DNA from: Muribaculaceae bacterium
GTDB lineage: Bacteria; Bacteroidota; Bacteroidia; Bacteroidales; Muribaculaceae
Assembly: GCA_017621225.1 (NCBI GenBank)
Contig: JAGATN010000021.1
Coordinates: 116,333 to 180,332, forward strand
Length of the DNA stretch: 64,000 bases
Direction: 5' to 3'
The notes under the pieces are model-generated. The model saw nothing but the letters and a program-made list of their open reading frames with translations. It was not told where the DNA came from and ran no database searches. How positions within the stretch are numbered: position 1 is the stretch's first letter; the number at the start of each line of letters is the position of its first letter. A program made the translations under genes and the position numbers. Below, piece after piece: positions 17,299 through 56,645 of the stretch.

Positions 17299-17463
17299 AG
17301 AAACTGTTTAAATTTATTTGTCGAAGGAATTGAGAGGATTTGTCAAGTAGATTTTTGATATTTATGAAGAAGTTATGAGGTTCCATAATGACTGAATAAA
17401 TATCAACAAGATGCTGACAAAGACCTCAATGACATAACAAAATAAATTTTTAAACAGTTTCTG
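17299..17463. mobile_element. MITE-like palindromic element A
   Basis: About 165 bases with terminal inverted repeats: AGAAACTGTTTAAA at the left and its complement at the right, each continuing into TTTATTT(T)G with a small gap. No protein is encoded. Inside, TTGATATTTAT and ATAAATATCAA form perfect inner arms around a core GAAGAAG / TTATG hairpin / TGACTGAA (17366-17396). The arms outside these also pair imperfectly, so the whole element can fold back. The right end lies three bases from the sodB stop codon. No target-site duplication is visible. With the upstream terminator it accounts for the 325-base gap between genes here. Confidence 0.75.
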
Positions 17464-39788: not shown

Positions 39789-39952
39789 GAGTATGTTTAC
39801 ATTTAACTTTATGAAATCTTTCGAGTCCTTTCAGATTTGTTTGGCGATTTCATTCAGTCGTTATGGCGCCCCCATAACTCCTTCAATCAATCTACAAACA
39901 TACTCTGAAATACTCTCTAAATCTTAACATAAGCCCAAAGTAAACATACTCT
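39788..39952. mobile_element. MITE-like palindromic element B, with nested second end
   Basis: About 165 bases with ends AGAGTATGTTTAC (left) and its complement (right). An additional AAACATACTCT copy at 39896-39906 lies inside, so the element is a shorter unit (39788-39906) with a 46-base duplication of its right end. Arms GTTTG-NN-GATT pair around the core, which on the minus strand reads GAAGGAG / TTATGG hairpin / CGACTGAA (39885-39853). It touches the GT2 stop codon and ends six bases before the HU ATG, so it fills the space where the HU leader should be. No promoter-like sequence for HU is seen inside it. Confidence 0.75.
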
Positions 39953-56450: not shown

Positions 56451-56645
56451 TAAGTAACTCGTATAAATTAGCTGATACATAATTATGAAGGGTTTTCGAG
56501 TGATTTTCGCGATGGAGAGAAGGAGTGTAGCGAGCTACACGACTGAACGACAGCGTGAAAAGCGCCGAAAAGACGAATAAGGATGTGTCAGCCCGTAAAG
56601 CTACTCGAGTTTTTTTAATTATAACTAATTTATAAGAGTTACTTA
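56451..56645. mobile_element. MITE-like palindromic element C
   Basis: About 195 bases with long inverted ends: TAAGTAACTC, one variable base, TATAAATTAG at the left, and the complement at the right (21 positions, 20 matching). Inside, TTTTCG ... TTTTC arms pair around the core GAAGGAG / TGTAG-CGAG-CTACA hairpin / CGACTGAA (56519-56547). A second CTCGAG-containing pair lies at its flanks. No protein is encoded. It fills most of the 339-base gap between the divergent DUF5686 and rsmG genes. No target-site duplication is visible. Confidence 0.75.

Follow-up and report, generated by a model that had tools for sequence, protein, structure and literature searches.

A tip-spaced hairpin with tandem G.A modules in Bacteroidales miniature inverted-repeat transposable elements and one IS5-family clade: a putative mobility signal

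The window, a stretch of 64,000 nucleotides from a Muribaculaceae genome (2.53 Mb in 47 contigs, 93.8% complete), carries three dispersed copies of a short hairpin core whose stem differs in sequence between copies and retains its pairing. What kind of element bears this hairpin, and what might the folded strand be for? A pattern scan of the window placed all three cores where the initial annotation had put them, and the pattern GAAGNAG..GACTGAA matched three times against 0.02 expected, a count reached in 0 of 100 shuffles. Core A (17366..17396, forward strand) consists of GAAGAAG, the stem TTATG..CATAA and then TGACTGAA; core B (39853..39884, reverse strand) has GAAGGAG, the same stem and CGACTGAA; and core C (56519..56547, forward strand) has GAAGGAG, the stem TGTAG CGAG CTACA and again CGACTGAA. 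Pairs 2, 3 and 4 of the five stem pairs differ between C and A or B with pairing kept in each, as had been stated. Two tandem G.A modules had also been proposed for the flanks; they are present in B and C, but not in A, where GAAGAAG sets AA opposite GA in the inner module.

All three elements belong to the miniature inverted-repeat transposable elements (MITEs). The initial annotation spoke of dispersed elements and did not foresee that these are MITEs with terminal inverted repeats (TIRs) in which the core is placed at a fixed distance from the tip. TIR pairs located by script show the three cores to be tip regions of complete TIR-bounded elements. Element A is a non-coding 162-bp MITE (17300..17461, forward strand) with TIR GAAACTGTTTAAA... 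and flanks TAA and TGA, and its core starts 66 nt from the left tip. Element B, also non-coding and 163 bp in length (39789..39951, reverse strand), has TIR GAGTATGTTTAC... and flanks TCA and TTA, with the core starting 67 nt from its tip. No open reading frame of at least 80 amino acids in the window's list overlaps A or B. Element C, likewise non-coding, spans 195 bp (56451..56645, forward strand), with TIR TAAGTAACTCNTATAAATTAG and an inverted-repeat pair at 56451..56471 (forward strand) and 56625..56645 (reverse strand); both ends are TA, and the distance of the core start from the T in TAAGTAAC is 68 nt, which falls to 66 nt should TA be the target duplication. End-to-end RNA folding gave z values of -9.2 (A), -8.3 (B) and -9.3 (C).

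A and B are IS5/IS1031-type MITEs. For the IS1031 subgroup, a TNA 3-bp duplication rule and TIR GAACCTGTCTA... are described (PMC12016507). Shared with IS5/IS1031 are an IS5-family transposase (Pfam DUF4096 and DDE_Tnp_1; NCBIfam NF033580), elements of 860-890 bp, GA-starting TIRs and TNA duplication; what differs here is the folded G.A-module core ∼66 nt inward of the tip, located at either end of elements in one clade. When MITEs and insertion sequences with the A TIR type were taken together, a 3-bp TNA duplication was found in 33/42 (shuffled mean 13.7, maximum 23), and the B TIR type gave 14/18 (shuffled mean 7.5, maximum 13). In the window copies of A and B themselves, the flanking triplets are one base apart (TAA/TGA and TCA/TTA). 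A partner matching A, with TIR GAAACTGTTTAAA, is an IS5 element in a related genome (G130), not the window's own. The TIR of the window genome's own IS5 element (GAGAGTGTTTGAATTT, contig C41 of G000) is related, not identical, to that of B. This element (G000:C41:1648-2379) is coreless, has a 273-amino acid open frame and is the sole NF033580 match in that genome (E 1e-20). The TIR of C, TAAGTAASTC, neither starts with GA nor shows the TNA duplication of the IS5/IS1031 type, and duplications of 2, 3 and 4 bp outside the TIR occurred in 2, 0 and 0 of 27 C-type elements, the same as in shuffled data; TA is a possible target duplication. With one mismatch allowed, the C TIR type is present in 27/149 relatives; no autonomous partner or mobiliser for it was found.

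Alignment A1 was built from 30 of 33 candidate sequences; given that its seeds were picked by flank pattern and stem presence, its apical pairing and G.A columns are partly by construction. Five stemless pattern matches (L028, L029, L032, L048 and L052) were left out as chance. RNAalifold returned the fold from A1 unprompted, with two-sided changes in 19/22 pairs. The named structure has two-sided changes in 21/25 pairs, and 87.2% of its cells are paired, compared with 62.8% after shuffling and 34.5-45.1% after sliding. The outer helix, which had no role in seed choice, shows two-sided changes in 15/15 pairs and is 81.8% paired. Of 66 distinct pattern sequences taken from the matches listed for the 149 genomes, 56 have a total length of 29-31; all five outer stem pairs form in 45 of these 56, four in 6 and fewer in 5, and the 10/66 of other lengths are unpaired or almost so. 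As a null, at least four of the five stem pairs form in 9 of the first 120 pattern matches listed in viral contigs, and all five in one (L213). Because stem changes keep pairing across many genomes, the conserved thing is a folded single strand. The strand with the G.A modules folds more stably than its complement in 106/108 cases as RNA and 103/108 as DNA. In one C-type MITE (L502, 1501-1714), additional sequence lies within the apical region of the core.

Covariation had originally been taken to suggest selection on a folded strand. The pairing does hold across many genomes, but covariation alone is no proof of selection, since template-switch repair is able to rebuild hairpin arms. Across 24 family-A copies, diversity is no lower in the core flanks (0.042) than in the remaining sequence (0.017), and no purifying selection was seen. 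More telling in this respect are the retained G.A mismatches and the spacing. In the distal part of the hairpin, two Watson-Crick pairs separate tandem G.A modules. From 286 rows of model matches, removal of those under 65 nt and merging of near copies left 109 representatives, 62 chosen by pattern and 47 without the exact pattern. GA/GA occupies the outer module in 94 of the 109 and the inner module in 100, and the module is fully paired, as GA/TC or TC/GA, in 6 and 3, respectively. Among the 47 matches without the exact pattern, whose detection by the model still favours GA/GA, the values are 32/47 (outer) and 38/47 (inner); between the two modules, 18 have AG/CT pairs and 19 have GG/CC. Tandem G.A pairs are found in the kink-turn and in other sheared G.A RNA motifs; the core differs from the kink-turn in that A1 has symmetric 2x2 loops and no 3-nt bulge beside the tandem G.A. 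Some copies resemble a C/D-box (TGATGA..CTGA), a likeness that is not general.

The second feature is the distance between tip and core. At 145/151 ends of six TIR types, tip and core start are 65-67 nt apart, as scanned over 110 nt upstream for the nearest TIR match (one mismatch for longer patterns), many of these ends being close kin. The exact distance was 66 nt in 30/31 ends of the GAAACTG type, 56/63 of GACCCC, 11/16 of GAGCC, 15/20 of GAGGTT and 4/4 of GAGATTG, and 67 nt in 16/17 of GAGTATG. For the C type, measured from the outer T of TAAGTAA, it was 68 nt in 24/34 ends and 67-69 nt in 28/34, which becomes 66 in most ends if the two bases of TA are set aside as target. A distance of exactly 66 nt recurs with TIR GAGCATG in Saprospiraceae (L118) and Chitinophagales (L195), and L360 has 67. 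In 26 longer elements of three TIR types, two cores, each at 65-67 nt, were read in 9 (GACCCC 7/10, GAGCC 2/10, GAGGTT 0/6), and one single core lies at 21. The other side of the core is nearly fixed at 64-66 nt in A-type (39/42) and B-type (16/16) MITEs; in 42 C-type elements it measures at least 53 to 129 nt, by a script whose fuzzy match moves many C-type starts by 3, and in three of these the core was read 129-148 from the first tip. When the spacer consensuses of five TIR types are compared, they agree at 32-65%; these spacers may therefore be distant relatives that have stayed free of indels, with a spacing that could be a matter of descent. Twelve stem-loops are each found with two or more TIR types, and such recurrence suggests module swapping.

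A convergent two-core arrangement is present at many loci, including 35/38 neighbouring pairs (<500 bp) in genomes G092 and G057, and two of the three non-convergent pairs there overlap a proper pair. Transposase remnants beside two-core loci exceed the cut-offs of Pfam DDE_Tnp_1 and DUF4096; scored with NF033580, the NCBIfam model of the IS5 family, both fragments tested stayed below the cut-off. One two-core locus (L341) has a 257-amino acid open frame without the C-terminal part, a second (L329) has its transposase frame in two pieces, and a 287-amino acid open frame (L330) has the left core and lacks the right one; no intact insertion sequence with a complete transposase and two cores was seen. 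By eye, L330 resembles L335 and L344, which are coreless, in domain content. In a quick tree of 48 transposases, with core labels assigned by the analyst from locus readings, 16/16 core-labelled rows fall in one clade (SH-aLRT 95), which also holds the coreless L338 and the unlabelled L445; the other 30 coreless rows lie outside. The core label changes twice on this tree, against about 13.7 times when shuffled. Cores beside L415, L428 and L360 were counted as those of neighbouring MITEs because TIRs lie between. One IS5 clade has the core at both ends, facing inward, and the strand with the G.A modules is the one whose 5' end is the tip. Across the 149 genomes, the core-clade transposase fragment is associated with cores (p 0.0003-0.0004), and complete NF033580 genes show no significant association (p 0.15-0.24). 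In two loci (L351 and L333), the left and right cores of one insertion sequence have an identical stem (CGATGGGG..), unlike the other two-core elements read.

No core was found at the ends of the 31 coreless-labelled tree rows or of four named-plasmid IS5 loci. Coreless IS5 elements of the sister clade are multi-copy, with seven in G092 (one truncated) and 9-10 in G130; the core is therefore no general need of IS5 transposition. Their TIR tips are those of core MITEs, as in the G130 IS5 and family A and in G092, where a coreless IS5 and the adjacent core MITE have the common tip GAGATTGTCTAAA. At L415-L418 (G092), L428 (G051) and L360 (G696), a coreless IS5 element abuts or lies near a core MITE whose TIR is identical or related to its own, an arrangement in which the two might move as one unit. 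Same-TIR pairs without a core numbered 0/73, a count of little weight because nearly all loci were chosen for their core.

The covariance-model search suggested with the initial annotation gave 56 matches to model R1 in the window's own genome and many in Bacteroidales relatives, and a looser core pattern gave 27 copies in the whole genome compared with one for a reversed control. Four contigs of this genome (C4, C14, C20 and C37 of G000) have a core-model match 25-32 bases from their start; they begin inside core elements, so the repeats break assemblies. The stricter pattern is present in 51/149 family genomes, with the reversed control giving a single match in each of 17. At least 116 stretches with the pattern, mostly in Bacteroidales as judged by record title, were found in a scan of named genomes, and R1 (E up to 0.01) confirmed 70/80 of the first loci and 35/36 of those remaining, two of these 35 weakly. 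Carriers include Prevotella, Hoylesella, Barnesiella and Alistipes, with Paramuribaculum intestinale, Hoylesella loescheii and Prevotella conceptionensis among the named species, as well as the Saprospiraceae and Chitinophagales loci L118 and L195. Matches in Paenibacillus and Lachnoclostridium metagenome-assembled genomes (L101 and L200) may lie on misbinned contigs, as perhaps may those in an Alistipes assembly of the same series. In Sulfurovum (L145, L151 and L192), a core-like hairpin (37-45 bits) lies directly 3' of the stop codon of a putative rplS, as read from translation; its tip distance is 47-48, its kinship to the core family is uncertain, and it may be an old insertion or some other structure. 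A phylum-wide model search of 296 genomes, with 16 candidates scored in each, matched only the window's own genome, which is weak evidence of absence. Plasmid DNA searched with A and C, and phage DNA searched with the L341 element, gave no match.

Host-gene regulation through MITE orientation was considered and set aside: in 53 of 56 matches examined, the left/right neighbour strands were -/+ in 14, -/- in 12, +/- in 8, +/+ in 7 and undecided in 12, no clear bias. An intrinsic terminator is not favoured either, a T-run being absent by eye after the hairpin.

Conservation of the core in gene-less MITEs, its presence at both ends, its polarity and its distance from the tip together point to a putative cis role in the element's own movement. 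The fold, covariation, TIRs, A/B-type duplications, clade link, inward orientation and spacing are observed; recognition of the hairpin, the factor that would recognise it and the DNA or RNA nature of the folded strand are inferences. The proposal, to which we give about even chances, is that in A, B and C the tip-spaced hairpin marks a putative signal for the element's mobility. Here, A and B would be mobilised in trans by IS5-family transposases; while the element moves, the transposase or a host factor would recognise a single strand folded a constant number of nucleotides from the cleavage site, so that the folded hairpin would act as a strand-specific mark. DNA as the folded strand is favoured by the fixed tip distance; RNA fits the excess of G.U.

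An unlikely but serious alternative is control at the RNA level, whereby the hairpin forms in transcripts that run into the element and, much like the 5' UTR folds of other insertion sequences, blocks or modulates expression of the transposase, and MITEs keep a relic or decoy RNA. In L330 and L341 the left core does precede the transposase frame, and wobble is tolerated: the outer helix of the 109 representatives has 135 G.U compared with 49 A.C cells, and the pair adjoining the module is G.U in 59, G-C in 48 and A-U in 2. However, G.T is also among the better mismatches in DNA, the right-end hairpin faces inward and so cannot govern the transposase mRNA, gene-less MITEs retain the hairpin, and neighbouring genes show no clear sense bias. 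The tip, to which the distance is fixed, is moreover a feature of the DNA, but a promoter lying within the TIR would have the same effect.

Absence of any selected function is, in our estimate, quite improbable. An ancestral hairpin would then have had its arms kept by template-switch (quasipalindrome) correction and its length by descent and recent spread, consistent with the near identity of family copies within one genome, the recurrence of whole stem-loops with different TIR types, as swapping or templated copying would give, and the near-fixed length of A- and B-type MITEs on both sides of the core. Such correction should nevertheless erase the G.A mismatches, which persist in the great majority of representatives; strand polarity is maintained; and the tip distance holds even where the spacers agree at just 32-45%, whereas in C-type elements the length on the other side drifts.

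A RAYT-like partner had been suggested at the outset. Movement of a REPIN/RAYT-like element in single-stranded form through a Y1 transposase would suit the many inverted hairpin pairs but is largely refuted and very improbable, given that Y1_Tnp had 0 matches at E 1e-6 in the window's genome and no association with cores across 149 genomes, that TIRs and 3-bp duplications indicate a DDE enzyme, and that the replication-strand bias of unpaired G092 cores (22/34, p 0.12, with skew taken from 20 samples of 20 kb) is not significant.

The mobility signal favoured here may be set beside known systems. REPINs and REP doublets (PMC3116915) are likewise short extragenic elements with inverted hairpin doublets; the elements here differ in having TIRs, target duplications and G.A modules, with Y1/RAYT not found. 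The BrickBuilt MITE of Porphyromonas gingivalis (PMC4596501) is also an intergenic MITE in Bacteroidales, but its base is a 23-nt tandem repeat, none of which was seen here by eye. ISPpu9 has a structured 5' UTR (PMC8450116), a fold similarly upstream of the transposase frame; the core fold occurs at the right end and in gene-less MITEs as well. Rfam gave no match for the window, none for C at E 5 and two sub-threshold hits for L329 (E 0.12 and 2.1). In the limited open-licence literature searched, no description of a G.A-module hairpin at a fixed tip distance was found, a result that does not show absence from print. Elements with these sizes and TIR types belong to a known kind; what may be new is the hairpin with G.A modules and its fixed spacing.

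Recognition of DDE insertion sequences is generally taken to involve double-stranded ends. A folded mark in families with different TIRs would be a shared end module, and we advance, as a doubtful extension, that such ends may be read twice, as the double-stranded TIR and as a folded sheared-G.A strand 66 nt inside; the reader would probably be a host factor, or reading would take place during replication or supercoil extrusion. A covarying, tip-spaced hairpin that spans different TIRs and the ends of an IS5 clade suggests a second, structural signal. The 15-nt motif and its spacing offer a simple handle for a mobility assay, and the covariance model permits annotation of a repeat that is widespread in Bacteroidales.
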